Virus record (IMG/VR): IMGVR_UViG_3300022750_000026
Location: 1-38,000 of that record
Source of the DNA: a virus
Direction: 5' to 3' (one strand)
Length of the DNA stretch: 38,000 bases
This document shows, piece by piece, positions 669 through 37,812 of the stretch; positions within the stretch are counted from its first letter, which is position 1; each line of letters starts with the position of its first letter. The position numbers and the translations under genes were made by a program. Below the pieces are notes generated by a model that was not told where the DNA came from, searched no databases, and saw only the letters and a list, made by a program, of their open reading frames with translations.

Positions 669-1019
669 TCACTCGCCGTGCAACTGCCGCAGCATAAGCG
701 CGTTGCACAGCATCTTGTCCAGATGCGTCGCCCCGGTTGTGCTGTCTGGATCGACTATTTCCCCGTTCATATGTTTGGTCAGATGGCTCATCATCGAATC
801 GATGATTTCTTCCTGCGGGAATCCCTTCCTCCAATTCCCACGCCCGTACTTGGCCACCCCCTCGGCAAACCCTTTGGCAGCACCCTCCAAAGCTGCAGTG
901 AACTCAAGGATCAGACTCAGTTGGGGCTTGTTGGAGCCTCGCCGGTCCCGACTAGCATGCTTAACAACTCGCTCCAAACTATCTTGGCTTTCCACCGGAT
1001 CGTCGACTGTGCTTTCCAT
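669..1019 (-). CDS. DUF5664 / dGTP_diPhyd_N family protein
   Basis: The product has 116 residues. Its core (about 36-113) shows the features of the DUF5664 family: KYGRGNWRKG, a helix with DSMMSHLTKHMNGE, and a final THLDKMLCNALMLRQL. As I recall, this Pfam family was renamed after dATP/dGTP diphosphohydrolases of aminoadenine phages, but it also occurs in many ordinary phages. Here it is the last gene of the operon that carries purZ, mazZ and datZ, so a nucleotide-related role is plausible but unproven. The start overlaps the upstream nuclease frame by 103 bp, which is unusually long; no later Met precedes the domain. Confidence 0.75.
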   Translation of the reverse strand: MESTVDDPVESQDSLERVVKHASRDRRGSNKPQLSLILEFTAALEGAAKGFAEGVAKYGRGNWRKGFPQEEIIDSMMSHLTKHMNGEIVDPDSTTGATHLDKMLCNALMLRQLHGE

Positions 1020-1354
1020 CCTTCATAACTCCTATCGTGGATCAATGCCCGGCTGGCAGATCCGGGGATCAATAAAAATTCTGGTTTTCCGAATTCGTCG
1101 TCGTATCTTGCCAGAATCCATGGCGTGCCGCCGTGCCTGACCCGGTTGCACATCCACGCATTCTGTGTCGCACGCAAGATGAAACCGCCCCGCTTGCGAT
1201 CATAGAACTTAAGTTCTATGTCTCCTTGGATGCCGCTAAAGCAGTAATTGACATCAGGACGGCCCTGCGAAGTAGCATGGGACTCGATCCGGTCCAGATG
1301 GCCCATGTGATCTAGGCCATCTTTTAACGTACCCCACAGTTTTTTCTCAGTCAT
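917..1354 (-). CDS. PD-(D/E)XK (VRR-NUC-like) nuclease
   Basis: The product has 145 residues. GRPDV (Asp34) followed by DIELKF (Glu47, Lys49) gives the D...ExK metal-binding core of PD-(D/E)XK nucleases. The later pattern RATQNAW...G...WILARY matches small phage VRR-NUC or resolvase-like nucleases. Such enzymes cut branched or recombining DNA in replication; the substrate is not shown by sequence. The start is one base past the datZ stop, so it belongs to the same operon. The last 35 residues share DNA with the start of the next gene in another frame. Confidence 0.72.
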   Translation of the reverse strand: MTEKKLWGTLKDGLDHMGHLDRIESHATSQGRPDVNYCFSGIQGDIELKFYDRKRGGFILRATQNAWMCNRVRHGGTPWILARYDDEFGKPEFLLIPGSASRALIHDRSYEGWKAQSTIRWKAKIVWSELLSMLVGTGEAPTSPN

Positions 1355-1355
1355 G

Positions 1356-1865
1356 TTAAATCTCGTATACTGCGTTCTGGATTTCAGACCAGATCTGGTG
1401 ACTGACCCGGCCCGGCTCGCCTACCAGATCGAAATGGCGGAATGCATGGGTCATGATGTCATTCATCACAGCATCCGAATGGCGACCCACCTTATGTTCC
1501 ATCAGGAATATCATGGACTCCAAATAATCGGCGCACTTCATGACTGCTTTGAATGGCTTGTCAATCTCAAGCACTGGATCAAACTGCGCCAGAACGTCGT
1601 CGGCGAGGCCTCCGAGGGCCTCTCGGAGGCGCGTCTTGGTCGGGGTGGGCACGTCGCCCGTCCGAGTCTCTCCCGCGTCGTGGACCACGGACAGAAGGGC
1701 GAGCCGGGCCACCGCCGCATCGTCCCACCCCAGCCGGCCGGCAATCTCGCACGCCAGAATCGCGACGCCCCATTGGTGTTCAGCCAATGTCTGGATGCGT
1801 GTGGTGTTAACGATGTGGAATCTTTTGACCGTCCCGGCCCGGATGATGTCATGTAGAGCGATCAT
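1356..1865 (-). CDS. datZ: DatZ: HD-domain dATP triphosphohydrolase
   Basis: The product has 169 residues, close to cyanophage S-2L DatZ (about 175). The HD metal ligands are all present: His30 in AEHQW, His62-Asp63 in VVHDAGE with Glu66, and Asp113 in KCADYLES. DatZ removes phosphates from dATP to deplete it, so that dZTP replaces it in viral DNA. Generic YfbR-type HD nucleotidases have the same motif, so the assignment rests on motif plus position directly after mazZ and purZ. It overlaps mazZ by 17 bp, and AGGA lies about 10 bases before the ATG. The middle of the gene (1601-1740) is about 76% GC, well above its surroundings. Confidence 0.88.
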   Translation of the reverse strand: MIALHDIIRAGTVKRFHIVNTTRIQTLAEHQWGVAILACEIAGRLGWDDAAVARLALLSVVHDAGETRTGDVPTPTKTRLREALGGLADDVLAQFDPVLEIDKPFKAVMKCADYLESMIFLMEHKVGRHSDAVMNDIMTHAFRHFDLVGEPGRVSHQIWSEIQNAVYEI

Positions 1866-2151
1866 GTTTCAGGATTCCTTGGCCGTCAACCGACCACGTG
1901 CGCTTATCGTTTATGTCCATCTTGTGCTTGATCAATTTGGCAAGATCGAAGCCCATGTGGTCACACAGGTCAAACAGGATGATGGCGATATCCGCCATTT
2001 CAAAGGCATCCAGCGGGTTGGCTTCAAGTTCCTTGAACTCTTCTTGAAGCTTCTTCACCATATGCTCTTTGGTGCGATGGGGATACACCTCATCGCACCA
2101 CTGTCTGATCCCGTCCGTTATTTCCCTAAGGTCATACTGGACGGGGCGCAT
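1849..2151 (-). CDS. mazZ: MazZ: MazG-like dGTP (d)NTP pyrophosphohydrolase
   Basis: The product has 100 residues and the all-helical MazG/DUF550 pattern: EExxE at Glu37-Glu38-Glu41 and ExxD at Glu51-Asp54, ending NDKRTW. In Z phages the enzyme cuts dGTP to dGMP and pyrophosphate, giving PurZ its substrate; MazZ of Acinetobacter phage SH-Ab 15497 belongs to this family. The start lies one base after the purZ stop and the end overlaps datZ, so the three genes are co-transcribed. Other MazG-like house-cleaning enzymes share the motif; the neighbours decide the name. Confidence 0.88.
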   Translation of the reverse strand: MRPVQYDLREITDGIRQWCDEVYPHRTKEHMVKKLQEEFKELEANPLDAFEMADIAIILFDLCDHMGFDLAKLIKHKMDINDKRTWSVDGQGILKHDRST

Positions 2152-2152
2152 A

Positions 2153-3172
2153 TTAGGAACCTACTTCAAAAACATCGCCGTGTGCCGGGCCGCTACCATA
2201 GTAATTGACATCAACCCCCGTGGCGAGCGTGATCGCCGCTGCCAATTCTTCAACTTCGTCCGGCATATAGTTGCAGAAGTTCAGGAAGATTTCATCAGGA
2301 GCACAGTAAAACGCCGCTTCCTTGATCTGTTCGATGCTAAACGTGAATACCCGGCGTATCCGCTGCGTAACAGTCGTTCTTTCAGCGGTTTGGCCCAGTT
2401 TCTCCCACGTAGTCTCTGACTGATCCGGGTAACATGGACCGCTGAAACCATCCGCCGTGTTGCCGACACGGATAGGGTACGTCCGGGCAGTGCCAATGAC
2501 GCGGCGTAGGAAATTATGAGGGATCCCCATGTCAGACAGGAATCGGGCTGGCGTGCAATCGCGTGAAGTAGTAAACGGGTAGAATTTAGTATTGATCCCA
2601 AGTGAATAGCCTTGGCTACCCTCGGCGAGAATCTCTTCCGCGACCTCAAGCGCATCGCGCCACTCCTCGTGAGAACACACATACCGCATTACGATGAGGT
2701 CGGTGCTGTTGGCCGCAATCGGCGAATCGACTTCTTGGCGTTGCATCTTGTGAACCATGGCGGCCATCGAGCCTTGCATGGTGCTGCTGATGCCGCTCAG
2801 GGTCATCTGTTCTTGTTTGGCGTGGGCATCCGCCAGCACTGTGGCGTTCGGGTGAATCATAATTTCCACGCCGCCGCTGAGGTAGCCCAATTCACGGGCC
2901 TCGTCGATTTCCTTTTTCAGGCGTGCCGGGTCGAACACGGCACCGGGGCCGATCATCACGCAGCGCAGGCCGGGCGATACGATACCGTTCGGCAGCACCT
3001 TGTGGATCATTTTTTGACCCTTGCTGTCGATGTACGTGTGGCCGGCGTTTGGCATGTTGCAGGTGATCACGGTGTCGTATTCACGAGTTTCGGCGAGGTA
3101 CCCGGCGATGAGACCTTTGCCAGTCGAGCCGAATTGCAGGTCGACGATCATGTCAACTTTTTTATTACTCAT
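2153..3172 (-). CDS. purZ: PurZ: N6-succino-2-amino-2'-deoxyadenylate synthase
   Basis: The product is a PurA-like protein of 339 residues, much shorter than bacterial PurA (about 430) and typical of phage PurZ. The P-loop-like motif QFGSTGKG has Ser16 where PurA has its catalytic Asp (QWGDEGKG), the recognised mark of PurZ. NAGHT keeps the PurA His (His45 here). The enzyme joins dGMP and aspartate, using ATP or dATP, to form the precursor of 2-aminoadenine nucleotides, which host PurB and kinases can finish. The start is set at 3172, where AAGGGG precedes the ATG; an in-frame Met five codons earlier has no ribosome site. The gene overlaps the primase gene by 8 bp. Confidence 0.95.
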   Translation of the reverse strand: MSNKKVDMIVDLQFGSTGKGLIAGYLAETREYDTVITCNMPNAGHTYIDSKGQKMIHKVLPNGIVSPGLRCVMIGPGAVFDPARLKKEIDEARELGYLSGGVEIMIHPNATVLADAHAKQEQMTLSGISSTMQGSMAAMVHKMQRQEVDSPIAANSTDLIVMRYVCSHEEWRDALEVAEEILAEGSQGYSLGINTKFYPFTTSRDCTPARFLSDMGIPHNFLRRVIGTARTYPIRVGNTADGFSGPCYPDQSETTWEKLGQTAERTTVTQRIRRVFTFSIEQIKEAAFYCAPDEIFLNFCNYMPDEVEELAAAITLATGVDVNYYGSGPAHGDVFEVGS

Positions 3173-5513
3173 CTTGTTCCCCTTCATCGTAGATTGGACT
3201 TTCGATTGCGTAGATTTCCATGGCCTTATCGGCCAACTCTTTCAAACTCGGCACGTTTATCGACCGAACCCGGTCATTTTTGCGCCGAACCCTTGTGCCT
3301 TCGGTGAACCCCAAAAGAGTCATCTTGGTGTAGAACACGGATGACGCTGTGATGGCCACTTTTGACTTGTACTTGCGGGACCACTCGGCGTATGTCTCCC
3401 AGAGCGATGCCTTTTCAACTACACTTGGCCAGCCAGTCCCTTCATTGTTCATGTCAGCTTTAACGTCATGAATGCCGAGGTTGCCGGAATCCAGTAAGAA
3501 TGCGATCCACGCTGGCAGACTGTCGTACAGGCTCTGTACTTGCATCATGGTCCGTTGGGCCTTCAATTCCTGCGTCACTGGAGCATACCGCAGGTTTGAC
3601 AACACTTCACGCCCCAAAAGTTCAAACAGCATGGCCTCATACCCGCCGTTTTCCATTTGGCGCTTGATGGCACCAAAATACTCGCGGTTGTTGGCCACCC
3701 CATCCAGCACCTTCAACACGAACCAACGTCGAGATTCCGGCCCGGCCGCTACCTTCCAATCGTTGTTGGTGGACATCATGATGTGCAGGAATGACTCGAC
3801 TTTCTCCTTGGATCCGAATTTCTGCTCTCTGGTGTTGGTCTTCTCCGTAACCATCGCTTTCAGCACGTTGGCTGTTTCGTGATTACCGGCGTACACCACC
3901 TCATCAGCAAACAGGAACACCGAATCCATGATCATGTCGTTGAACTGTGAGTTCAAGTGCTTGCCGTTCGAAATGATCGAGGCATGCAACCCGAAGATGT
4001 GCGCCAATGCGTTGGCTAGGGTGCCCTTACCAGCACCCTCGATGCCCCCCAAGACTACTGCCGTCCCCTTCGGGTTGGATGGTTCTTGGAACATGTCGGC
4101 CATCCAGTCCATCAGCCAATCATAATGCACCTGATTGCTGTCGCATAGGTTCGTATAGATATGCTTCTTGAGCAGATCCCACTCGCCCTCGACCGCCTCG
4201 ACCGCAAAACCGGCCCATGTGTTCAGGAACGTCAGCCCGGTGGAGTCGACGATGGTCGGCCCCATGTCCGGTTTCAGGATCATGCCGTCAAACGAGTTAC
4301 GGCGCGGGCTGGCCATCCAGATATCAAATTTGCGTATCGGTTTCTCAGCACCCTTTTCGTTCTGGACCATTATCACGTCGTTCATGAAAAAGGACCGGAA
4401 TGCATCTATTGAATAGAGCTTAAACCGATGCTGAATCGACCCCAAGACCTGCTCTTTGCGAGCGACCTTGACGTTCTCGCCGGAAAGTACCAGAGCGTAC
4501 CTTCTGTTGTATTCATCCACACTATCCGAAACGAAACTCTCGTCACCGCCTTGATCCTCCGGAACCATCGACGGCGTGCCGCATTGCTGGACGATGTAGA
4601 AAAGAGTGGCCATTCGAACCGGCCCGTTCTGTTTAAACCCCTTCCATCTAACATGACACTCACCGGCTTCATATCGTTCGCCTCGTTGTGACCAGTCATC
4701 CCAAAGATCTAGAGCATCCGGGCCGCAATGCTGCGAGTGGATAGCCTGCCCGACCTTTAGCCATTGTTCGTAGTCCAGCACGTTAGGATCGAGGGCATCG
4801 AGCAGGCTGGACACTTTCTGCAGTGACACAAGTGTCTCAACATCATCCGCCCGCATGCCTTCGTTGCCGCGACCTTCTCCGTCCCGCTTGCGCCACGCAA
4901 TGCCCATCGCCTCATCGATCCACTCGGGGGAGGCGTGGATGTCTCCCCCTGCTATCCATTCGTAGCCTTTGCCATCAACCACACTTGGGAATGCCATGAT
5001 GTGGGATGAAATTTTATTGGGGTGGCCGCCCCGCGTGTCGATCCCGTTGGCTAGTCGGTTTTGGCTCGGCGTGAGGTTTTCTTTCCACGCCAATAACACG
5101 TGTTTACCGCCGCTCGGCGTAGATTGAACCGGGACAGCCTGTAACCCGCCATGCGCTTCCAGCAAGCTATCCCACGCGGCGGTTCCCCATATGTCTTTTC
5201 CGTATTTGGGGTGATACTTGTTATCAACGTCAATGGCGAACACTCCACCCTTGCCGTAGTAATCACCACATCCAATGGCAATATTCCAACCTGCGTAACG
5301 GCCAGTATCCGGGTGGAACCACTCTGTGATCTTGTCCTTTCGGGCAGAACAACGAGATGTATAGATTGACGTATTATTGACATGCTTCTCACCATAAGGG
5401 ATCGGAATGACCGGGATGCCTTGAGAGATATACATCAGCGCCGCCCGGAATACCTTGGTCTTGTGATCCTCTACATCCTCAATGGCCTTCACTTCGGCCA
5501 AGTCGATTCTCAT
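3165..5513 (-). CDS. PrimPol-helicase (archaeo-eukaryotic primase fused to D5-like ATPase)
   Basis: The product has 782 residues. The N-terminal half is a bifunctional primase-polymerase domain with Asp95-Val-Asp97 (IDVDNK) and the SGGKH motif at 134-138. A PriCT-like region follows (DYEQWLKVG...LWDDWSQRG...CHVRWKGF, about 235-300). The C-terminal half is a helicase ATPase with Walker A GGIEGAGKGT near 488-497, Walker B FLFADE and sensor MMSTNND. It makes primers and unwinds DNA at the phage fork. Cyanophage S-2L also pairs a PrimPol with its Z genes. The gene sits between the polymerase (13-bp gap) and purZ (8-bp overlap). Confidence 0.9.
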   Translation of the reverse strand: MRIDLAEVKAIEDVEDHKTKVFRAALMYISQGIPVIPIPYGEKHVNNTSIYTSRCSARKDKITEWFHPDTGRYAGWNIAIGCGDYYGKGGVFAIDVDNKYHPKYGKDIWGTAAWDSLLEAHGGLQAVPVQSTPSGGKHVLLAWKENLTPSQNRLANGIDTRGGHPNKISSHIMAFPSVVDGKGYEWIAGGDIHASPEWIDEAMGIAWRKRDGEGRGNEGMRADDVETLVSLQKVSSLLDALDPNVLDYEQWLKVGQAIHSQHCGPDALDLWDDWSQRGERYEAGECHVRWKGFKQNGPVRMATLFYIVQQCGTPSMVPEDQGGDESFVSDSVDEYNRRYALVLSGENVKVARKEQVLGSIQHRFKLYSIDAFRSFFMNDVIMVQNEKGAEKPIRKFDIWMASPRRNSFDGMILKPDMGPTIVDSTGLTFLNTWAGFAVEAVEGEWDLLKKHIYTNLCDSNQVHYDWLMDWMADMFQEPSNPKGTAVVLGGIEGAGKGTLANALAHIFGLHASIISNGKHLNSQFNDMIMDSVFLFADEVVYAGNHETANVLKAMVTEKTNTREQKFGSKEKVESFLHIMMSTNNDWKVAAGPESRRWFVLKVLDGVANNREYFGAIKRQMENGGYEAMLFELLGREVLSNLRYAPVTQELKAQRTMMQVQSLYDSLPAWIAFLLDSGNLGIHDVKADMNNEGTGWPSVVEKASLWETYAEWSRKYKSKVAITASSVFYTKMTLLGFTEGTRVRRKNDRVRSINVPSLKELADKAMEIYAIESPIYDEGEQDE

Positions 5514-5526
5514 CTGGCGTCCCCGT

Positions 5527-7398
5527 TTATTTCTTGTCAGGCTTTTTGATGGCTGCCCACCAATTGGAACCCACGCCGTTCAGGTCAAGTAGGAGCGGCA
5601 CCCTAGATGGGAGTGATGATGCCGCATCCTGCATTGCCTTGTACGCTGCGATTGGGTCGTCTACGCTGGTATCCCAGCTGTCGTGGATGTTCAAAAGGAT
5701 AGTGCCGTTGCCGTCAATTGCTTCCTCGACGCCGGTCCACATCATCTTGTTGAAGTCTGCCGATGTGCCTTGAATCAGCAAGCCGGATTGCTTGTAGGAC
5801 TTATATCCGTTGATGCAACGAAATCTGCGCCCGGTGAAACTTTTGATGTAACCGCGATCTTCCGAAATCTGCTTGGCTCGATCTGCCAAAGTCTTCACGC
5901 CCGGCACTTGGCGATGGTACTCATCAATGATGGACATCATTTCAATGCCCGGCTTGCGGTAGCGTATCTGCTTGCCCGCTTCGCGCCCGGTGGATACCGT
6001 GAACTCGGCCCATTCCCAAGGGAGACCAAGTTTGTGGGCGATCGCCCCGTTGCCGCTATTAAAAATCATGGACAGATTCAACTGTTTGGCGTTCGCCTCG
6101 CCCTGCCGCGTTGCGTTCCGGGGCACGCCCATCAGGTCCGCTACATATTGATGGAAGTCCATCGCCGGGTTGGCCGCGTAAATGTTCTGCAATGAGTTGT
6201 TGTATAGCGCCACCAAATGGGCGAATACCCTAACTTCAAATGAGTTCATGTCAGTAGACAGCCAATGCTGGCCGTGTTCTGGCAGGAATGCCTTTTTGAT
6301 CCGTTCGGCAATCTTTTTATTCCGGTTCGGGATCTGCTGCAGTGCAGGGTCTTGGTATGACAACCGGCCGCTGCCGGTGCCACCATCCTCGCCTTTACTT
6401 TGGTTGATGGTAGGATACACCCTATCCCCAACCATGTGGCCAAGGATGTGGCCCTTCAAGAATGTATCACGGGTCTTGATCATAGACCTGAGTTCCACGA
6501 CTGCGTTGGCAATCGGGTCACCCATGCCAGTCAACACCTCGGCGGTCAATGACGGACCGCCAGATTTTGCGGTGCCTAAAGTGGATCCAGTAAGCTCGGA
6601 TATCCAGATGCCTGACGGTAACTGCACTGGCTTGAACAGCGCTTTGATTTGCGAGGCGCTGTTGACGTTAATGCCCCTGATGTCTACCCTCTTTTCTAGC
6701 GCGTGCTGTTGTTCATCTACTACCACATCCAAAGCTTCAACAGCCTCTTCGGCGGCAGTCTGATCAACACGTATGCCTCGCATTGCGGTACGAGCAAGAG
6801 TAGGCAGCACTTTGCGTTCGAAGGCGATGATGCTATGTAGGTCTTGGCGTTCAATCTCTTTCTGCTGCCACAGCCACAGGCGTAGTGCCAAAGCGGCATC
6901 TTTATCTTGGTAACGGCGCACTAAATCACGCGGCGCAAACTGCAAGTTCATGATCTGCCCGTTTTTGGTGGCCCGACCGCCGAATATCGCGGCCAGCTCC
7001 TCCCAAGGCTCCTCCTTGCCTTCGCCGAGATACTTTTGGGCGAGGTCTTCAAGCTGGTAGCTGCCGGGGCGGTTGCCCCATGGGAAAATTGTACCTTCGT
7101 GTTCGTTGATTTGGCAGGCCCGCACTACAGTGCAATCCACACGCTCCAACGGCATGCGGATCCCGGCAGCAGCCAGCATTTTAACATCGAACTGCGCGTT
7201 ATGGAACACGAACAAGCAGCGGGAGTTGTCGATGTCCCGTTGCAGTTGAGGAATAAGGTGCTGTTCAGTGCGAAAGTCAATGAACAGCGAGGCACCCTGT
7301 GCGGGTGCGAATGAAACCGAGAACGCCTTGTCACGCGGGTACACAAGACCAGTGGTCTCGGTGTCGCCGCCGACAACAGGCAAATCGAAGACTGACAT
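5527..7398 (-). CDS. dpoZ: DpoZ-type family A DNA polymerase with 3'-5' exonuclease
   Basis: The product has 623 residues. The exonuclease domain has Exo I DTE at Asp12/Glu14, Exo II FHNAQFDV and Exo III YQDKDA. The polymerase domain has motif A DMNSFEVR (Asp383, Glu388), motif B RQGEANAKQLNLSMIF and motif C HDS at 572-574. There is no 5'-3' nuclease domain. DpoZ polymerases of Z phages favour aminoadenine over adenine, and the exonuclease helps reject dATP. The name is inferred from domain layout and from purZ, mazZ and datZ in the same operon; sequence alone cannot prove Z preference. Motif C has Ser where most family A enzymes have Glu. Confidence 0.88.
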   Translation of the reverse strand: MSVFDLPVVGGDTETTGLVYPRDKAFSVSFAPAQGASLFIDFRTEQHLIPQLQRDIDNSRCLFVFHNAQFDVKMLAAAGIRMPLERVDCTVVRACQINEHEGTIFPWGNRPGSYQLEDLAQKYLGEGKEEPWEELAAIFGGRATKNGQIMNLQFAPRDLVRRYQDKDAALALRLWLWQQKEIERQDLHSIIAFERKVLPTLARTAMRGIRVDQTAAEEAVEALDVVVDEQQHALEKRVDIRGINVNSASQIKALFKPVQLPSGIWISELTGSTLGTAKSGGPSLTAEVLTGMGDPIANAVVELRSMIKTRDTFLKGHILGHMVGDRVYPTINQSKGEDGGTGSGRLSYQDPALQQIPNRNKKIAERIKKAFLPEHGQHWLSTDMNSFEVRVFAHLVALYNNSLQNIYAANPAMDFHQYVADLMGVPRNATRQGEANAKQLNLSMIFNSGNGAIAHKLGLPWEWAEFTVSTGREAGKQIRYRKPGIEMMSIIDEYHRQVPGVKTLADRAKQISEDRGYIKSFTGRRFRCINGYKSYKQSGLLIQGTSADFNKMMWTGVEEAIDGNGTILLNIHDSWDTSVDDPIAAYKAMQDAASSLPSRVPLLLDLNGVGSNWWAAIKKPDKK

Positions 7399-7407
7399 AT
7401 CAACCCC

Positions 7408-7758
7408 TTAGAATGGAATGTCGTCGTCGAAATCCGCAGGCTGGTTCGGGCGCGATGGGCCGGACAGGTTATTAGGCCCCTGCTTATGGGCGTTGGCCTT
7501 GCCTTGATTTTGCGCCAAGAAATCAGCCGCGTCATTGTTGGTGGCTGTGCGGCGAGGTGCGGAAGACGCTTGTTCTTCTTTGGGGGTGAAGGCGAGCGAT
7601 AGATATTTGGCGCCTTTGGAGGAGGTCTTGATCCAGCAGGATACCCAGCATTCTACGCCTTCAACTTCGGCGGTGCCGCGATAATCCGGATGTTTGTCTG
7701 ATTCTTTGCGGTCATTGACAAACAATGCCCCGCGATTGCTGTTGTCATATTCGGCCAT
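7408..7758 (-). CDS. ssb: Single-stranded DNA-binding protein
   Basis: The product has 116 residues: a beta-rich OB-like N-terminal part (about 8-60, with WVSCWIKTSSKGAKYLSLAF), a disordered Asn/Gln/Pro-rich linker, and the tail DDDIPF. That acidic tip is the SSB signature for binding replication partners. It would coat single strands at the phage fork. GGAGAG precedes the ATG by seven bases. The gene ends nine bases before dpoZ starts, and a hairpin terminator (7792-7821) lies upstream. The SD is part of a small hairpin whose loop is TGTCGCC. Confidence 0.85.
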   Translation of the reverse strand: MAEYDNSNRGALFVNDRKESDKHPDYRGTAEVEGVECWVSCWIKTSSKGAKYLSLAFTPKEEQASSAPRRTATNNDAADFLAQNQGKANAHKQGPNNLSGPSRPNQPADFDDDIPF

Positions 7759-7827: not shown

Positions 7828-8595
7828 TTACATGTCGGCTGGATCGACGTAATCGGCAGCTGGCTCGGATTTGCGCGACACGTCGCGCTTGCCGGTCTTC
7901 ACTGCTTCATACACCGCTTCGGCACGCTTGAACAGGGACTCAGGAACGAACCCCAATTGCTTCACGGACCAGTTGAAGTAGTCGCCCTTCGGCCCGGTGT
8001 CCTGAATCACACTCAGACGGTACGCACGACCGAAACGATCGCCGCCGCCGTTCTGAACCATGGTGTTCCACTTGCGGCTAGGTTTCAGCTGCGAGCGGGA
8101 CATGGAAATCACAACATCTTCGCAGTGAGGTTTGGCCTCGGTGTGGTCCGAATGGACCATAATGCAGAAATGTTGGTGGGTGTAGGACACATCCCAAGCC
8201 GAAGGGTTTTCCTGCGCTTGAATCCACTCCTCGGCCTGTTCTTCGGTGTCGGTTGCGACACCGAAGCCCCCGCCCTGCTTGCGATCCTTCCACGCCACGT
8301 ATTCACCCCGGAAAAAGCAGGGGATGACGATGACGTTACCATCAGCATAAAGCGCATTGCTGGAGGTATTGAAGATCATGCCTTCTTCGGCGCCGTCGAT
8401 GTACGCATCCTCGTTCTTTTTGCGCTGAGGCGAAAGATCTTGGATGATCGACAGTCGGGGAAGCGACATGTCATCGGAGGTTACACCCTCACTGCCGCGA
8501 CCGGTGTCGGTCACGTAATCGGGGCGCTCGTTGCCGCCAAACAGGGCGAGTTCGGTTTCGGCGTTCTGTGTAGCCACTTCGTTCTTCTTAGCCAT
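7828..8595 (-). CDS. Conserved replication-region protein, 255 aa
   Basis: Not assigned to a named family. The product is soluble, with an acidic, flexible N-terminus (about 1-40), a core with SLPRLSIIQDLSP, GNVIVIPCFFRGEYVAWKDRKQGGG and RKWNTMVQNGGGDRFGRAYRLSVI, and a charged C-terminus ending DPADM. Phage proteins of this kind sit beside ssb and polymerase genes, and a role on single-stranded DNA or in recombination is possible, but no motif proves it. It is the second gene of the transcription unit that starts at promoter D and is followed by a terminator hairpin before ssb. Confidence 0.75.
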   Translation of the reverse strand: MAKKNEVATQNAETELALFGGNERPDYVTDTGRGSEGVTSDDMSLPRLSIIQDLSPQRKKNEDAYIDGAEEGMIFNTSSNALYADGNVIVIPCFFRGEYVAWKDRKQGGGFGVATDTEEQAEEWIQAQENPSAWDVSYTHQHFCIMVHSDHTEAKPHCEDVVISMSRSQLKPSRKWNTMVQNGGGDRFGRAYRLSVIQDTGPKGDYFNWSVKQLGFVPESLFKRAEAVYEAVKTGKRDVSRKSEPAADYVDPADM

Positions 8596-8634: not shown

Positions 8635-9174
8635 TTACTTTTTGGTTACGCTTGCACGCATGAAAGGTGTGTACTTGACGAGCTTGCAGATCTTGTCGAA
8701 GAGAGTTTCGTCATCTTCTACTTCTGCAGGGGGGTCAAATTCCACATTTTCTTCCGATGCGGCCTTCTCCAAATCCTTGACGATGGACTTGAGGGAAGAC
8801 GAGTTGACGGTTTCCTTGACGATGTCAGGGTAGCCGTTTTCCTTGAGGAACTTGAACAGATCCTCTTGGCATTCTTTCGGTTGGGTGCAGTAGGCATCTT
8901 TGGAAATGCCGAGGCGCCCGATGCCTGCAATGTTCATCGACGTCACTTCATCCTTGAGGAAGCGCTCAGGCACGACACGCAGGCGGATGACGTCGAGTTC
9001 CTTATTCAGGCGAGTGTTCTCATCGTCGGCGGCCTTGGCCTGCGTGGCCAGCACCAACATGCGGGCTGCGAGTTTAGGGTAAGGCTGCTCTTTGTACTCG
9101 TTGTACCACTTGAGCGAAAGATCGACCACCTCGGGGGCGTCATCCAGATCATCGAATTCTTGGGGTTCAGACAT
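8635..9174 (-). CDS. Conserved phage protein, first gene of the replication operon
   Basis: The product has 179 residues with an acidic N-terminus, a long helix (about 35-65), then KDEVTSMNIAGIGRLGI, which reads as a beta hairpin, and a helix with EDLFKFLKENGYPDIVKETVNSSSL. Phage proteins with this 'G(I/V)GR' hairpin and a following 'TVN..SL' segment are common near replication genes and have no settled function. The gene follows promoter D. Its SD (GAGGA) lies in a CCTC-AGTCGCC-GAGG hairpin. Confidence 0.78.
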   Translation of the reverse strand: MSEPQEFDDLDDAPEVVDLSLKWYNEYKEQPYPKLAARMLVLATQAKAADDENTRLNKELDVIRLRVVPERFLKDEVTSMNIAGIGRLGISKDAYCTQPKECQEDLFKFLKENGYPDIVKETVNSSSLKSIVKDLEKAASEENVEFDPPAEVEDDETLFDKICKLVKYTPFMRASVTKK

Positions 9175-10024: not shown

Positions 10025-10120
10025 TCATGCCTTCCAATAATAGTCGTTTTCGTCGTTGGATTCCCAATTCTCGCCGTTTGTGGCTATCCATGCAGCCAGC
10101 ATCACAAGCAAGAATCTCAT
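10025..10120 (-). CDS. 31-residue peptide with hydrophobic N-terminus
   Basis: A very short frame whose ATG overlaps the helicase stop as ATGA. The product starts MRFLLVMLAAWIA, a possible signal or membrane anchor, then an acidic Asn-rich part ending DYYWKA. Frame and packing support translation, but codon evidence in so short a gene is weak. Function is unknown. Confidence 0.5.
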   Translation of the reverse strand: MRFLLVMLAAWIATNGENWESNDENDYYWKA

Positions 10121-11601
10121 ATGTAGCCGTCCATGTCAGGGTTAGAGTCGAACATCTTGGATTTATGCGCCAGCGAATCCTTGACGAGTTCGGCCAAGTC
10201 TTTTTTGAGGGTCAGTGCACGACGGATCATGCGATCTTCCTTCACCATGGCCTCAAAGTCGACATAAATGCAGTGATCAGTTTGTCCTGTTCGGTGGTTC
10301 CGGTTCTCCATTTGAATGCGGTCCTCTGATGAGAACGTATTGGAAAAATTAAGTGCGTATTTCGCCGCAGTGAGAGTAAGGCCGATTCCGGCGACCGTCT
10401 GGTTCCCCACAAAAAACTGGCAAGTCGGGTCATCCTGAATGCGGTCAACGGCAACGCGTCGATCTGCGTCGTTAACCGATCCATCGAAGCGCACCACTGC
10501 TGATGCTCCATACTTATCAGCGAGTCTTTGAACAATGCGTTCACGTTCAGGCTCGAAACGTGCCCATACGAGACATTTGGTTCCATGAGGTAGATCCTCG
10601 ATGTATTCGAACATGGCGTCCATTTTTGGGTTATCGCCCGGCATGGTGACCGTGCGATAACCGCCGTTTTCTTGGTCGATCATTGGCAGGCTACCACCAA
10701 CAATCTGCTGAATGCGCGTCATGCGCTCAAGGGCCATTTCTACATACAGCTCGGCCTCTTGTTCCGGCATGACCAGCATGCCTTCATCTTTCAGCTGTCG
10801 AATGGCCTTGCGTTGCTCAGGGGAAAGAGGAACATTAATGACTTGATAGATTTTGTCTGGGATATCGGCACAATCCTTAAGCGCGACGAGGTCTGCATAC
10901 TTGTTGATTCGCCCAGTAAGCTCATCGAGATTCTGGTACTTGACAATTTTTTTGTTCTCAAAGCCTCCCATAATGCAATATCTAGCTCGGAATTGCGCCC
11001 ATTTCGTAATGCCAATGATATTAGGGTTGAGAAACCGAAATTGCGCAAACAAGTCGTGAGGACCCTGCGTGACAGGGGTGCCCGTGAGAATAAGGCGGTA
11101 TTGACCAGTCCAAGCGAGGTTGGTAGCTTTCTTGGTTCGAATGGAGGACGGGTTTTTAATGCGGCTTGATTCATCTTCGACCACCATGGCCTTGCGGCCT
11201 TGCATGTAGGCCAGTACCTTCTCATAGGTCTTGCCTTGTGATAGGGACTCGACGGCCAGCACCAAAAATTCAAGAGTGCGGACGGTGACGCGGGGTCTGG
11301 TAGGGCTAACGCCTTGGCTCAGGGTCTGGACGTGAGTCGGAATATCCGATGCCCACAGCTTTACTTCGCGATCCCAAACTTGCTTGATCGAGTTCGGGCA
11401 GATGATGACCACGAGGTCGATTTCGTTCCACGTGAAACGTGTCTTGGCGACGTGAATTGTGGCGTAGGTCTTGCCTGCGCCCGGTTCCCAAAAGAAGGCG
11501 AACTCGTTAAGCTCCAAAGCTTTGGCGATCCCGCGTTCTTGGTGCTTGCCGGGCTTGCCGACCCATGGCACCTGCGACAGGAGATTTTCGTAGGCGCTCA
11601 T
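10117..11601 (-). CDS. SNF2-type superfamily 2 DNA helicase
   Basis: The product has 494 residues. Walker A is PGAGKT at 40-45, motif II is EDESS near 142-146 (DES in place of DEAH, common in phage SNF2-like helicases), and motif III is LTGTP at 172-176. The second RecA domain has the final NHRTGQ motif. Such enzymes move on double-stranded DNA and take part in phage replication, recombination or chromatin-like remodelling. A parS-like site lies inside the coding region at 11425-11438. It overlaps both neighbours by ATGA. Confidence 0.9.
   Translation of the reverse strand: MSAYENLLSQVPWVGKPGKHQERGIAKALELNEFAFFWEPGAGKTYATIHVAKTRFTWNEIDLVVIICPNSIKQVWDREVKLWASDIPTHVQTLSQGVSPTRPRVTVRTLEFLVLAVESLSQGKTYEKVLAYMQGRKAMVVEDESSRIKNPSSIRTKKATNLAWTGQYRLILTGTPVTQGPHDLFAQFRFLNPNIIGITKWAQFRARYCIMGGFENKKIVKYQNLDELTGRINKYADLVALKDCADIPDKIYQVINVPLSPEQRKAIRQLKDEGMLVMPEQEAELYVEMALERMTRIQQIVGGSLPMIDQENGGYRTVTMPGDNPKMDAMFEYIEDLPHGTKCLVWARFEPERERIVQRLADKYGASAVVRFDGSVNDADRRVAVDRIQDDPTCQFFVGNQTVAGIGLTLTAAKYALNFSNTFSSEDRIQMENRNHRTGQTDHCIYVDFEAMVKEDRMIRRALTLKKDLAELVKDSLAHKSKMFDSNPDMDGYI
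11425..11438. promoter_or_regulatory. parS-like site 1 (GTTCCACGTGAAAC)
   Basis: A perfect match to the 14-bp core GTTYCACGTGRAAC of bacterial chromosomal parS; the outer bases differ from the 16-bp consensus. It lies inside the helicase gene. Confidence 0.6.
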
Positions 11602-22086: not shown

Positions 22087-22143
22087 GGGCAAGATGTGCA
22101 ATCTCACGGGCGCGTGCGCTCCACAAAAGCTGACCTCCGATAT

Positions 22144-28545: not shown

Positions 28546-29544
28546 ATGGGCCGCATCATCCTCCCCGGCGATAAACGATTCGCCCGCACCCTCGATCAAG
28601 GGGTTGCAAACGCACGTACGCAAGACAGTAACCTTGCGTATTACGTCAACCAGTTGGACAACTTCGACCAACGCCTGCACGAGCCTTTGGTGTCGGTGTC
28701 TTGGGGCCGCGACATCAAGCTGCGTACTGGCTTGACCATGGCCAACGAGTCCACCTCGTTCACCCGTTCCAGCTTTGCTGGCGGCGGTACTCAGGAAGTC
28801 CAAGGTAAGCCTTGGATCAGCCCTGAAACCACCACCATTCCGGGCGTTTCGGTTAACGGCGAGCGCATTGTATCCCCGCTGCGCCTGCTCGGTCGTGAAG
28901 TCAGCTACACCAGCGTTGAGCTGGAACGCAGCCAACTGCTCGGCCAGCCGATCGACACCGCCAAACTGAACGCGTTGAACACGCTGTATCAGATGAACAC
29001 CGATGAGCAGGTTTACATCGGCGACACCTTCACTGGCGACCAAGGTCTGGTTAACTCCAGCCAAATCGCCTTTGGCAACGTGACTGGCGGTACTTGGGCG
29101 GCCAACGTGGCGACCCCGGACGTGATCCTCGCCCAAATCAACGAAATGTTGATGACCGCTTGGACCGCATCGGCGTTCACCATCTGCCCGGCTGAAATCC
29201 GCGTGCCGCCTGTGCAGTTCGGTTTGATCACCACCATCAAGGTGTCTGGTCAGGCGAACATGTCTATTCTGGAATACATCAAACAGAATAGCATCGCCAA
29301 CAACCTCAACGGCAAACCGGTGAACATCCAGCCGCTGAAATGGCTGACCGGCCGTGGCGTTGGCCCGACTGACCGCATGATGGCTTACACCAACGAGGAA
29401 GATCGTCTGCGCTTCCCAATGGTGCCGATCCGTCGCGAAACCGCCTACTATCAGGGGATCCGCTTCATTTCCCCTTACATCTGGGCATTCGGCGCTGTCG
29501 AGTTCGTCTACCCTGAAACCGTCATTTATCGCGACGGGATCTAA
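28546..29544 (+). CDS. Major capsid protein (DUF2184)
   Basis: The product has 332 residues. It shows the DUF2184 capsid pattern: NLAYYVNQLDNFDQRLHEPL, VSVSWGRDIKLRTGL, ALNTLYQMNTDEQVYIGD and YYQGIRFISPYIWAFGAVEF. It builds the icosahedral shell (HK97-type fold by family). AGGAGA lies before the ATG. A very stable hairpin at 29551-29574 follows the gene and may help keep its mRNA level high. Confidence 0.92.
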   Translation: MGRIILPGDKRFARTLDQGVANARTQDSNLAYYVNQLDNFDQRLHEPLVSVSWGRDIKLRTGLTMANESTSFTRSSFAGGGTQEVQGKPWISPETTTIPGVSVNGERIVSPLRLLGREVSYTSVELERSQLLGQPIDTAKLNALNTLYQMNTDEQVYIGDTFTGDQGLVNSSQIAFGNVTGGTWAANVATPDVILAQINEMLMTAWTASAFTICPAEIRVPPVQFGLITTIKVSGQANMSILEYIKQNSIANNLNGKPVNIQPLKWLTGRGVGPTDRMMAYTNEEDRLRFPMVPIRRETAYYQGIRFISPYIWAFGAVEFVYPETVIYRDGI

Positions 29545-31747: not shown

Positions 31748-33238
31748 ATGGCAACGCAAGGTCTTTCCGTCAACCGTCTGATCCGCACGACCGTCAATTT
31801 GTCGCCGATTGCCGCGCAACGTCGCGGTTTTGGCACCCTGCTGACCCTCGGCGATTCCAGCGTAGTGGCTGCGGGCGAAATCCCACGCCTGTACACCAGC
31901 CTTGAAGCTGTAGCGGCCGATTTCGGTCTGTCTGCTCCAGAATATCTGGAAGCGCAGGCGTATTACAGCCAATCCCCAAAACCGCTGTACTTCATGGCCG
32001 GTCGTTGGGCGCGCACCGATGCCCCGGCTCAACTCCGCGCAGGCATCCTGACTGCTGCTGAACAGGTTATGGCGTCGTGGATCGCCTTGACTTCCAGCAC
32101 TTTCCGCATCACTGTCGGCGGCGTCGTCAAAAACGTTACCGTGCCGACTCTGGCGGCGCAAGTCAACCTGAACGGTGTGGCCACGCAAATCACTGCCGGC
32201 CTGACCACTGCTACTGCCGGTGTGACTTGCACTTGGGATGGCAGCCGTTTCATTTTCACCACCACTGCAGTCGGCGCGGCTGCCACCATTTCCTACCTTG
32301 AGCCTACCGGCGCAGGCGTGGATATCTCGGCCAAGCTGAAAGGCACTCAGGCGTTTGCTTCCCCGCCTGCTCAAGGTGTGGCTGCCGAAGCCCCGGTCGA
32401 TGCAGTGCTGCGCGCATCCATCGCTTCTGGCCTCTGGTTCGGTCTGACCTTTGCATCGTCCGTGCTGCCGACTGATGCGCAGAACACTGCCGTTGCCGGA
32501 TTGGTTGAAGGTTTGGCGCTGGACCGCATGTTCGGTGTTACAGTGACCAACACCAACGTGTTGGACCCGCTCGTAACCAACGATCTGTCGTCCAGCCTCA
32601 AAGCGTTGAAATACGCCCGTACCTTCACCCAATTCAGCGCCAACACCCATGCCGCTGCCAGTATGTTTGGCCGGGCATTCTCGGTGAACTTCGCTGCCAA
32701 CCGTTCCACCATCACGCTGATGTACAAGCAAGAACCGGGCATTGCCGCCGAGACCTTGACCGAGGCCCAAGCGACCACCCTGAAATCGAAAAACTGCAAC
32801 GTGTTCGTTAACTACATCAACGACACGGCCATCATCCAGTACGGTACTATGGCCAACGGTGCGTATTTCGACGAAATCCACGGCCTGTCGTGGTTCAAGG
32901 ATGCGATCCAGAACTCGGCGTTCAACCTGCTGTACCAATCCAAGACCAAGATCCCGCAAACCGATCCCGGTCAGAACCAATTGATTGGCGTGGCAGCCGG
33001 CGCTTGCAACGAAGCAGTGAACAACGGCCTGTGTGCACCGGGCACGTGGAACAGCGACGGGTTCGGGCAGTTGGCACGCGGCGACTACCTGAAAACCGGG
33101 TTCTACATCTTCACGCCTCCGCTGGCATTGCAGGACCAGTCGATTCGCGAAACCCGTACCGCACCACCGCTGCAAATTGCGCTTAAGCTTGCTGGCGCTT
33201 TCCAAGAACTCGACATCATCGTCAACGTTAACCGTTAA
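31748..33238 (+). CDS. Contractile tail sheath (DUF3383)
   Basis: The product has 496 residues. The start SVNRLIRTTVNLSPIAAQRR, the region YTSLEAVAADFG...YLEAQAYYSQSPKP and the C-terminal DYLKTGFYIFTPPLA...RTAPPLQIALKLAGAFQ are typical of DUF3383 sheaths. It forms the contractile outer tail layer, which makes this a myovirus. The next gene is the tube, as expected. Confidence 0.92.
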   Translation: MATQGLSVNRLIRTTVNLSPIAAQRRGFGTLLTLGDSSVVAAGEIPRLYTSLEAVAADFGLSAPEYLEAQAYYSQSPKPLYFMAGRWARTDAPAQLRAGILTAAEQVMASWIALTSSTFRITVGGVVKNVTVPTLAAQVNLNGVATQITAGLTTATAGVTCTWDGSRFIFTTTAVGAAATISYLEPTGAGVDISAKLKGTQAFASPPAQGVAAEAPVDAVLRASIASGLWFGLTFASSVLPTDAQNTAVAGLVEGLALDRMFGVTVTNTNVLDPLVTNDLSSSLKALKYARTFTQFSANTHAAASMFGRAFSVNFAANRSTITLMYKQEPGIAAETLTEAQATTLKSKNCNVFVNYINDTAIIQYGTMANGAYFDEIHGLSWFKDAIQNSAFNLLYQSKTKIPQTDPGQNQLIGVAAGACNEAVNNGLCAPGTWNSDGFGQLARGDYLKTGFYIFTPPLALQDQSIRETRTAPPLQIALKLAGAFQELDIIVNVNR

Positions 33239-33249
33239 GGGGTGCTGGC

Positions 33250-33702
33250 ATGTCTACTTACTCTTTTCTCGACTGCAACGCCGCCATCAGTGGGCCGGGC
33301 GGTTCGATCAACTTGGCATCCGGTGCTGGTGCGTCCGAGGAGGGCATCACCATCGTGCCCTTGGAAGACAAAAACATCATGCAAATCGGTGCTGGCGGCC
33401 AAGGTCAGCATTCTTTGGTGGCCGGTGAGGCTGCCACTGTAACCGTTAACCTGCTGAAAACCAGCCCGGTTAATGCCCTGCTGATGAACATGTACAACTA
33501 TCAGACCAGCTCCAGTGTCCTCCACGGCAAGAATACCATTGCCGTGACCGACCTTGGTCGCGGGGACCTGATCACCCTCAGCAAGGTGGCATTCAAACGA
33601 GTGCCTGACCTTAATTATGCCAAGGAAGCTGGCATCAACATTTGGGTTTTCGACGCAATCAGCGCCGGCCGAATCCTTGGCGTAGGGACTCCTGAACTAT
33701 GA
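33250..33702 (+). CDS. Tail tube protein (DUF3277)
   Basis: The product has 150 residues: YSFLDCNAAISGPGGSINL, VPLEDKNIMQIGAGGQ and ATVTVNLLKTSPVNALLM. It forms the inner tube under the sheath. The end overlaps the chaperone gene by ATGA. Confidence 0.92.
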   Translation: MSTYSFLDCNAAISGPGGSINLASGAGASEEGITIVPLEDKNIMQIGAGGQGQHSLVAGEAATVTVNLLKTSPVNALLMNMYNYQTSSSVLHGKNTIAVTDLGRGDLITLSKVAFKRVPDLNYAKEAGINIWVFDAISAGRILGVGTPEL

Positions 33703-36557: not shown

Positions 36558-36874
36558 TGGCTGACACTCTGTTCACCATCCCAGTTGAAAACATCCCGCA
36601 GGATTTTAACATCACCCTGTCGGGACTTCAACTGCGGACGGTGTGCAAGTGGAATGAGTTCTGTGGCTGGCTGCTGGACATCTATGACGCCACGACTCAG
36701 GAGCCGTTGATTATGGCCCTCCCTTTGGTGGTCGGCTGCGACATTTTGGAGCAGTACAAGTACACCGGCATTCCGGGCGCCATGATCGTTTACACTGACG
36801 GCGACCAATACGCCGCCCCCACACTGACCAACCTCGGCGTGGAATCTAACCTGTATTATTTGGTGAATGTATGA
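36557..36874 (+). CDS. Baseplate plug protein (Pam3 gp18-like)
   Basis: The product has 105 residues: QDFNITLSGLQLRTVCKWNEF, WLLDIYDATTQEPLIMALPLVVGCDILEQYKY, and a last LGVESNLYYLVNV. This pattern is known from baseplate plug proteins of cyanophage Pam3 and relatives. The start overlaps the previous TAA by one base. It is placed between Dit-like and hub genes as expected. Confidence 0.82.
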   Translation: MADTLFTIPVENIPQDFNITLSGLQLRTVCKWNEFCGWLLDIYDATTQEPLIMALPLVVGCDILEQYKYTGIPGAMIVYTDGDQYAAPTLTNLGVESNLYYLVNV

Positions 36875-37812
36875 CTGGCGGGCAGACGCAGTACATCCGC
36901 AAGTGCAACCTGATCTTCGCCAATGAAGCGGGCGATGCGCTGGATGTGTCTAACTTGCGTATTGTGTTTGCCATTCGCCGGACTGACGGGCAGACCCCAA
37001 ACACTGCCAACATCCGCATTTTTGGGCTGAACCGGGACACCCGCAACAAGATCCAAAAAGAATTCACCGATGTGCTGATGCAAGCTGGCTATGAACAGAA
37101 CTTCGGCGTGATTTTCACCGGAACGGCCAAGAAGATCATCACCGGTAAGGACAATAACGTCGACACGTACCTTGAGATTCAGGCGGCGGATGGCGACACG
37201 GCATACAACTTTTCGACTGTTAACGCTACGATTTCTGCTGGCGCCACCCAACGGGACCAAATCGATCAAGTGATCAAGGTCATGAAGACGAAAGGCGTTG
37301 TGGGCGGTGCTGTTGAAGTCGGCGACACTCAAAAGCTGCCGCGTGCCAAAGTGATGTATGGCATGAGCCGCGATTACATGCGCCAATCAGCTTCTTCTGG
37401 CGGGGCGTCATGGACCATCCAAAACGGTGTTGTTCAGGTGATCCCGCTGACCGGCGTGCTACCTAACGAGGCTGTAGTCCTTAACAGCGGCTCGGGCTTG
37501 GTCGGTAGACCAGAGCAAACCAACACTGGCATCAAGTTCCGTTGCCTGCTGAACCCGTTCATTCTGGTGGGCGGCGCTGTTCAGATCAATCAGGCAGACA
37601 TTCAAGAGGCGGAGTTGGATCAATCTTTTGCCGATCCCGCCAGCAAGTCCAAGAAAGAGGACAAGCCAGTCACTATCGAGGCAGACGGCCTTTACCGCGT
37701 CATCACCCTGAACCTGACGGGCGACACACGCGGCAATGATTGGTACTGTGAAGGTGAATGTCTGGATATGGATACCACCGTCGACAAAAAGAAATCGGTA
37801 CAGGTGAATTAA
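36871..37812 (+). CDS. Baseplate hub protein
   Basis: The product has 313 residues. The start YIRKCNLIFANEAGDALDVSNLRIVFAIRR, then NIRIFGLNRDTRNKI and late ALDEL-like PVTIEADGLYRVITLNLTGDTRGNDWYCEGECL, are typical of hub proteins of this phage group (E217 gp41 type). It forms the baseplate centre around the tube end. The start overlaps the plug stop (ATGA). Confidence 0.85.
   Translation: MTGGQTQYIRKCNLIFANEAGDALDVSNLRIVFAIRRTDGQTPNTANIRIFGLNRDTRNKIQKEFTDVLMQAGYEQNFGVIFTGTAKKIITGKDNNVDTYLEIQAADGDTAYNFSTVNATISAGATQRDQIDQVIKVMKTKGVVGGAVEVGDTQKLPRAKVMYGMSRDYMRQSASSGGASWTIQNGVVQVIPLTGVLPNEAVVLNSGSGLVGRPEQTNTGIKFRCLLNPFILVGGAVQINQADIQEAELDQSFADPASKSKKEDKPVTIEADGLYRVITLNLTGDTRGNDWYCEGECLDMDTTVDKKKSVQVN

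Follow-up and report, generated by a model that had tools for sequence, protein, structure and literature searches.

The best explanation for the genes in this DNA is, with little doubt, a 2-aminoadenine (Z) replication operon carried by a contractile-tailed phage. The window is the whole stretch that was analyzed, the entire 38,000-base virus record IMGVR_UViG_3300022750_000026. The identities of the Z genes and the structure of their operon were established (Table 1), and the genes make up the complete set known to serve the synthesis of DNA with Z in place of adenine. That the virion DNA carries Z is the best prediction for this phage, and a sound one. The Z gene set itself is already known, since the predicted set and its order match those of Alteromonas phage ZP6 and Stenotrophomonas phage BUCT555.

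The original prediction had put datZ, mazZ, purZ, and a dpoZ-type polymerase in one minus-strand operon with a PrimPol-helicase and ssb, and the open reading frames bear out this arrangement and its coordinates. The operon does, however, reach beyond the claimed 1356-7398 at both ends. A PD-(D/E)XK-like gene, a DUF5664 gene, and then a hairpin are found 3' of datZ. Upstream of ssb are the gp34-like and gp33-like genes and a sigma70 promoter. From 8595 to 669, neighboring genes overlap or are at most about 70 nt apart. The first 100 nt or so of the DUF5664 gene lie within the nuclease gene (917-1019), and this overlap is kept in the IMG/VR relatives G001 and G005. The gp34-like gene was present in every known PurZ/DpoZ phage compared, save S-2L. 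The records of phiVC8 and BUCT555 label the PrimPol-helicase an integrase (L124 5683-7971 and L125 5749-8019), which could falsely suggest lysogeny.

Table 1. Features of the Z operon, its surroundings, and the structural module in the window.
Feature	Position	Strand	Evidence	Remark
Hairpin, terminator-like	639-661	symmetric stem, scored on +	10-pair stem, 7 G-C	just past operon end
Stand-alone DUF5664 dATP/dGTP diphosphohydrolase, predicted	669-1019	-	PF18909 3.9e-18, 65.7 bits (cut-off 27)	operon's last gene
PD-(D/E)XK-like nuclease gene	917-1354	-	phrog_2165 3.9e-25; VRR-NUC/RecU-like by motif	adjoins datZ
DatZ, predicted dATP triphosphohydrolase	1356-1865	-	phrog_7076 1e-23	
MazZ-1 (DUF550), predicted (d)GTP diphosphohydrolase	1849-2151	-	PF04447 5.6e-9	
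PurZ, predicted 2-amino-adenylosuccinate synthetase	2153-3172	-	NCBIfam NF038379 342 bits (curated cut-off 300), 2e-102	
PrimPol-helicase	3165-5513	-	PF09250 3e-17, PF08707, PF19263; phrog_1156 1e-66	
DpoZ, family A polymerase with 3'-5' exonuclease	5527-7398	-	NCBIfam NF038380 741 bits (curated cut-off 500), 1e-222	
ssb, single-strand DNA-binding protein	7408-7758	-	phrog_18154 4.9e-22	
Pam3 gp34-like gene	7828-8595	-	PF23977 5.7e-65	shared replication module
Pam3 gp33-like gene	8635-9174	-	PF23984 7.2e-21	operon's first gene
sigma70 promoter TTGACA-18-TATAAT	9259-9230	-	12/12 match	extended -10 TG
SNF2-family helicase	10117-11601	-	PF00176 9.8e-22; phrog_62 3e-94	shared replication module
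Major capsid protein	28546-29544	+	PF09950 2e-65; Pam3 capsid structure 2.8e-21	
Contractile tail sheath (DUF3383)	31748-33238	+	phrog_205 1.2e-109; PF11863	
Tail tube protein	33250-33702	+	PF11681 KPP10_Orf10 1e-44; Pam3 tube 0.014	
Baseplate hub	36871-37812	+	phrog_196 6e-66; PF22759 E217 gp41	

PurZ scored well above its family's cut-off, and its score against the best PurA model, PRK04293, was 132, below that model's cut-off of 368. Its best match among solved structures is PurZ of phiVC8. The longest reading frame spans 2153-3187, but the claimed start at 3172 is probably the right one, because its ATG follows AAGGGG and the ATG at 3187 has no comparable sequence before it. The motif GSTGKG stands where E. 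coli PurA has GDEGKG, so that Ser replaces the catalytic Asp13 of PurA. The pocket residues V241, T273, and R280 are kept, as is T276 (S-2L numbering). Phylogeny had been proposed as a check, and the protein fell with known PurZ, apart from E. coli PurA, which is on a long branch, and from the PurZ0 pair (support 98/96). Membership of the PurZ family was confirmed, and the enzyme is a predicted user of dGMP.

The same check on the polymerase placed it inside the phiVC8-like DpoZ clade (support 100/98). Neither of the two sequence-level outcomes named as refuting the prediction, PurZ within PurA and a polymerase outside the DpoZ clade, was found. This clade has 13 members and takes in all phiVC8-like DpoZ. 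It is apart from the polymerases of E. coli, S144, YuA, and Pam3 and from Wayne-type DpoZ. The best solved-structure match is DpoZ of phiVC8 (7pbk, 1.7e-193). The signature residues L455, F459, G548, and S583 are kept, as is R440. These four signature residues are atypical for family A, and the first three are characteristic of the phiVC8-like clade (PMC8599892). The protein carries the helix-O insertion and the palm insertion, and its exonuclease ligands D26/E28/D85 are intact. Some other polymerases fall outside this clade. These are the polymerase of Ochrobactrum phage OH (L131 4963-6789), which is without L455, F459, and G548, and those of six new PurZ contigs (G094, G098, G099, G101, G105, and G106).

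DatZ matched the S-2L DatZ structure (6zpa) at 6e-16 and E. coli YfbR at 1e-6. Its identity to known DatZ outside its own lineage is only 23-32%, and the DatZ tree did not separate it from YfbR. It keeps the metal ligands H34, H66, D67, and D119, as well as R19, I22, P79, K81, and K116. I22, the adenine-selecting residue, excludes the 2-amino group (PMC8065100). The best solved-structure match of MazZ is S-2L MazZ (7ody, 8.5e-9). It keeps the acidic metal ligands E35/E38/E50/D53 together with I56, D60, and R83, and it is assigned to the S-2L type, MazZ-1. Among the phage records that matched MazZ, 17 of 18 are PurZ records. In both enzymes, the residues linked by the S-2L structures to dATP and guanine specificity are conserved. 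The claim that each Z gene has its family's key residues held for PurZ, MazZ, DpoZ, and the metal ligands and I22 of DatZ. The W20 position of DatZ, the sugar gate, is Phe in the window and Tyr in BUCT555.

The DUF5664 gene is the fifth dNTP-pool gene of the operon, and its position is kept in three relatives (G001, G005, and G004). The DUF5664 enzyme of the Arthrobacter phage Wayne hydrolyzes dATP and dGTP, dATP ten times faster, and in SH-Ab 15497 the DUF5664 domain is fused to DUF550 (PMC12884076). In the window each of the two is a gene of its own, and the phage has PurZ and not PurZ0. DUF5664 was rejected as a Z-specific gene, as many non-Z phages carry it. A role in the Z pathway is therefore suggested by its position and neighborhood. 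The nuclease next to datZ has relatives in phiVC8, K300, ZP6, Bm1, and BUCT555. It was likewise rejected as Z-specific, because Pseudomonas, Xanthomonas, and Stenotrophomonas phages that are not listed with PurZ carry it as well.

The Z pathway of the window phage can be inferred by analogy with characterized relatives. MazZ would convert dGTP to dGMP, and PurZ would use dGMP and aspartate to form the aspartyl intermediate. The host lyase PurB and host kinases would complete dZTP. DatZ would remove dATP, with the DUF5664 enzyme assisting. The PrimPol-helicase would prime and unwind, and DpoZ would replicate the genome, preferring dZTP over dATP.

Drift of DatZ or dominance of the host pool might leave adenine only partly replaced even though the Z genes are present, but this is unlikely. 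The divergence of DatZ, with W20 changed to F, fits this, and the S-2L cluster placed in E. coli converted a significant share of adenine but not all (PMC8342488). However, the metal and phosphate ligands and I22 of DatZ are all kept, a second predicted dATP-consuming enzyme (DUF5664) is encoded, and DpoZ would add selectivity. It is very unlikely that the enzymes only control the ordinary dNTP pool, or dGTP, and that the DNA is normal. MazG, HD, and DUF5664 enzymes do occur in non-Z phages, but a PurZ with Ser in place of PurA Asp13 and with the dGMP-pocket residues, and a polymerase with the signature residues of the Z clade, speak against this reading. A Z-containing virion DNA is preferred.

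The plus-strand module encodes terminase and portal in addition to the proteins in Table 1. The sheath matched solved sheaths (7kh1 at 4e-44 and Pam3 8hdr at 1e-13). About 6 kb that lie in the relative G001 between the window's two ends are absent from the window, and these would hold baseplate, fiber, and lysis genes. Relatives fill parts of this gap: they encode a spike-like protein, an Rz lysis protein, a tail fiber assembly protein, and a DUF2612 protein, which in phage S144 is annotated as belonging to the baseplate. The sheath, tube, and baseplate genes indicate that the window phage would be contractile-tailed, a myovirus. Z phages have been placed in Siphoviridae and Podoviridae (PMC8599892, PMC8342488), and those published as such have tails that are short or do not contract. 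They have also been divided into seven genome groups, in a paper from which the word myovirus is absent (PMC12884076).

The lack of a close deposited phage and the origin of the window as an assembled virus record would fit a metagenome chimera, in which the replication module of a Z podovirus was mis-joined to a myovirus structural module. This is scarcely credible and was rejected, because independent contigs from three other metagenomes (IMG/VR G001, G005, and G003) carry the Z-module genes and the sheath on one contig, with the same arrangement and 65-100% identity. The joined modules are thus taken as those of one phage. The entire replication module is common to the window and the Z podoviruses, and the tail module is common to DUF3383 myoviruses. 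The two therefore appear to have been joined by recombination. PurZ was not found in 39 records, many of them fragments, whose DUF3383 sheaths are more distant; the same query matched 4 of 5 records in another set. No DNA-level relatives of the window were found among deposited phages. When bacterial genomes were scanned with DpoZ for a host, the sole match was a distant polymerase. Of 50,697 deposited phage records, 204 matched PurZ, and these were mostly Arthrobacter phages.

A second phage that joins Z genes to a contractile tail is Burkholderia phage Bm1 (L128, L160; PP183292). Its record contains PurZ, DpoZ, DatZ, the nuclease, and a DUF3383 sheath. When sheath profiles were run on twelve named Z phages, DUF3383 was found in Bm1 only and Phage_sheath_1 in none. 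Electron microscopy shows Bm1 to be a myovirus, and the main text of the paper that describes it does not mention adenylosuccinate synthetase (PMC12003559). The Z replication module thus lies behind contractile tails in the window lineage and in this overlooked isolate, and morphology appears to set no limit on it. Bm1 differs from the window in its structural module, in the very long branch of its sheath, and in having its PrimPol elsewhere. In the sheath tree it is apart from the window lineage, with non-Z phages in between. AU tests of one clade for the window lineage and Bm1 gave p values of 0.076 for DpoZ, 0.30 for PurZ, and 0.054 for the sheath. The two may have taken up the Z module separately, as the trees separate them, but the AU tests are not firmly against a single origin. 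Since Bm1 is in culture, Z DNA in a myovirus is accessible to LC-MS.

The Z podoviruses Alteromonas ZP6 and Vibrio phiVC8 and K300 have the same order as the window (SNF2 helicase, gp33/gp34-like, DpoZ, PrimPol, PurZ, sometimes MazZ, DatZ, and nuclease). Their PurZ is 54-57% and their DpoZ 49-53% identical to that of the window. Unlike the window, they have no match to a tail sheath, their MazZ is of the MazZ-2 type or unmatched, and no DUF5664 match was found in the loci compared. BUCT555 has the same module as the window, including MazZ-1 (PurZ 55%, DpoZ 50%), but no match to DUF3383 or Phage_sheath_1, and none to DUF5664 in its locus. Acinetobacter phage SH-Ab 15497 and cyanophage S-2L share PurZ, DatZ, and MazZ-1 with the window. 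The former also has DpoZ and the DUF5664-DUF550 fusion described above, whereas S-2L is without DpoZ. The sheaths of non-Z DUF3383 myoviruses (IMG/VR G008 and G014-G016, and Burkholderia phage Magia) are 46-61% identical to that of the window. An annotated adenylosuccinate lyase gene in the Gordonia Z phage Ghobes (L151 1-546) is a possible phage source of the next step of the pathway. In Pam3 (L149, not listed with PurZ), a thymidylate synthase, an HD deoxynucleotidase, a "nucleotide modification" gene, and a polymerase occur together, as if another base change were carried.

Z phages of proteobacteria are strongly enriched in near-perfect sigma70 promoters that carry an extended -10 TG. The operon promoter is the same in G003 and has an 11/12 counterpart at that place in G005. 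A scan of 13 Z-phage genomes or contigs of the PurZ type (531 kb; hosts proteobacterial where known) gave 68 sites with at least an 11/12 match, and 64 of these had the extended -10 TG. Among controls, TG was present at 0 of 2 sites in seven named non-Z phages (209 kb), several of which share the polymerase, nuclease, or HD gene. It was present at 0 of 30 sites in 28 non-Z polymerase loci (405 kb) and at 2 of 6 in 15 non-Z DUF3383 genomes (596 kb), for a pooled count of 2 in 1.21 Mb. The TG fractions differ at a Fisher p of about 2e-21, with sites taken as independent and phylogeny ignored.

IMG/VR was also scanned by promoter alone, with PurZ information unused. PurZ was carried by 8 of 63 tested records with a GC-biased pattern (7/48 and 1/15) and by 1 of 42 with an unbiased pattern, so that nine PurZ contigs were recovered in total. 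A family A polymerase was near PurZ in all eight that were examined. Non-TG control patterns gave PurZ in 0 of 26 records, which are mostly AT-rich, so this contrast is weak by itself. A scrambled pattern, used as a random sampler, gave no matches. The class was not found in S-2L or in the actinobacterial phages Wayne and Ghobes, perhaps because the host polymerases differ. Non-Z phages with the class exist; thus it is enriched in Z phages and not exclusive to them.

A Z:T pair has three hydrogen bonds, which would make the -10 region harder to melt. Z phages that use the host sigma70 polymerase may for this reason have been selected for the strongest promoters, those with consensus -35 and -10 elements and an extended -10 TG, of which the operon promoter would be one example, and the class would then mark Z phages and make them findable by promoter alone; this proposal is tentative and rather doubtful. 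Selection of consensus and TG promoters by Z:T melting is a lead, not a result. The predicted loss of UP elements from the promoters of Z phages was rejected, as GC-matched non-Z promoters of that class showed no difference. The signature prompts one to ask how transcription begins on Z DNA with the host RNA polymerase, a subject on which a search of the literature gave no results.

A 13-base motif, CCGACGARCGGTA, lies just upstream of the -35 element, or replaces it, in several promoters of the window lineage. It is found in the window at 22088, 12843, and 9284 (minus strand) and in G005 at 2772, 5098, 8460, 10238, and 10481. It is present upstream of BUCT555 promoters as well and is perhaps the site of a phage regulator.
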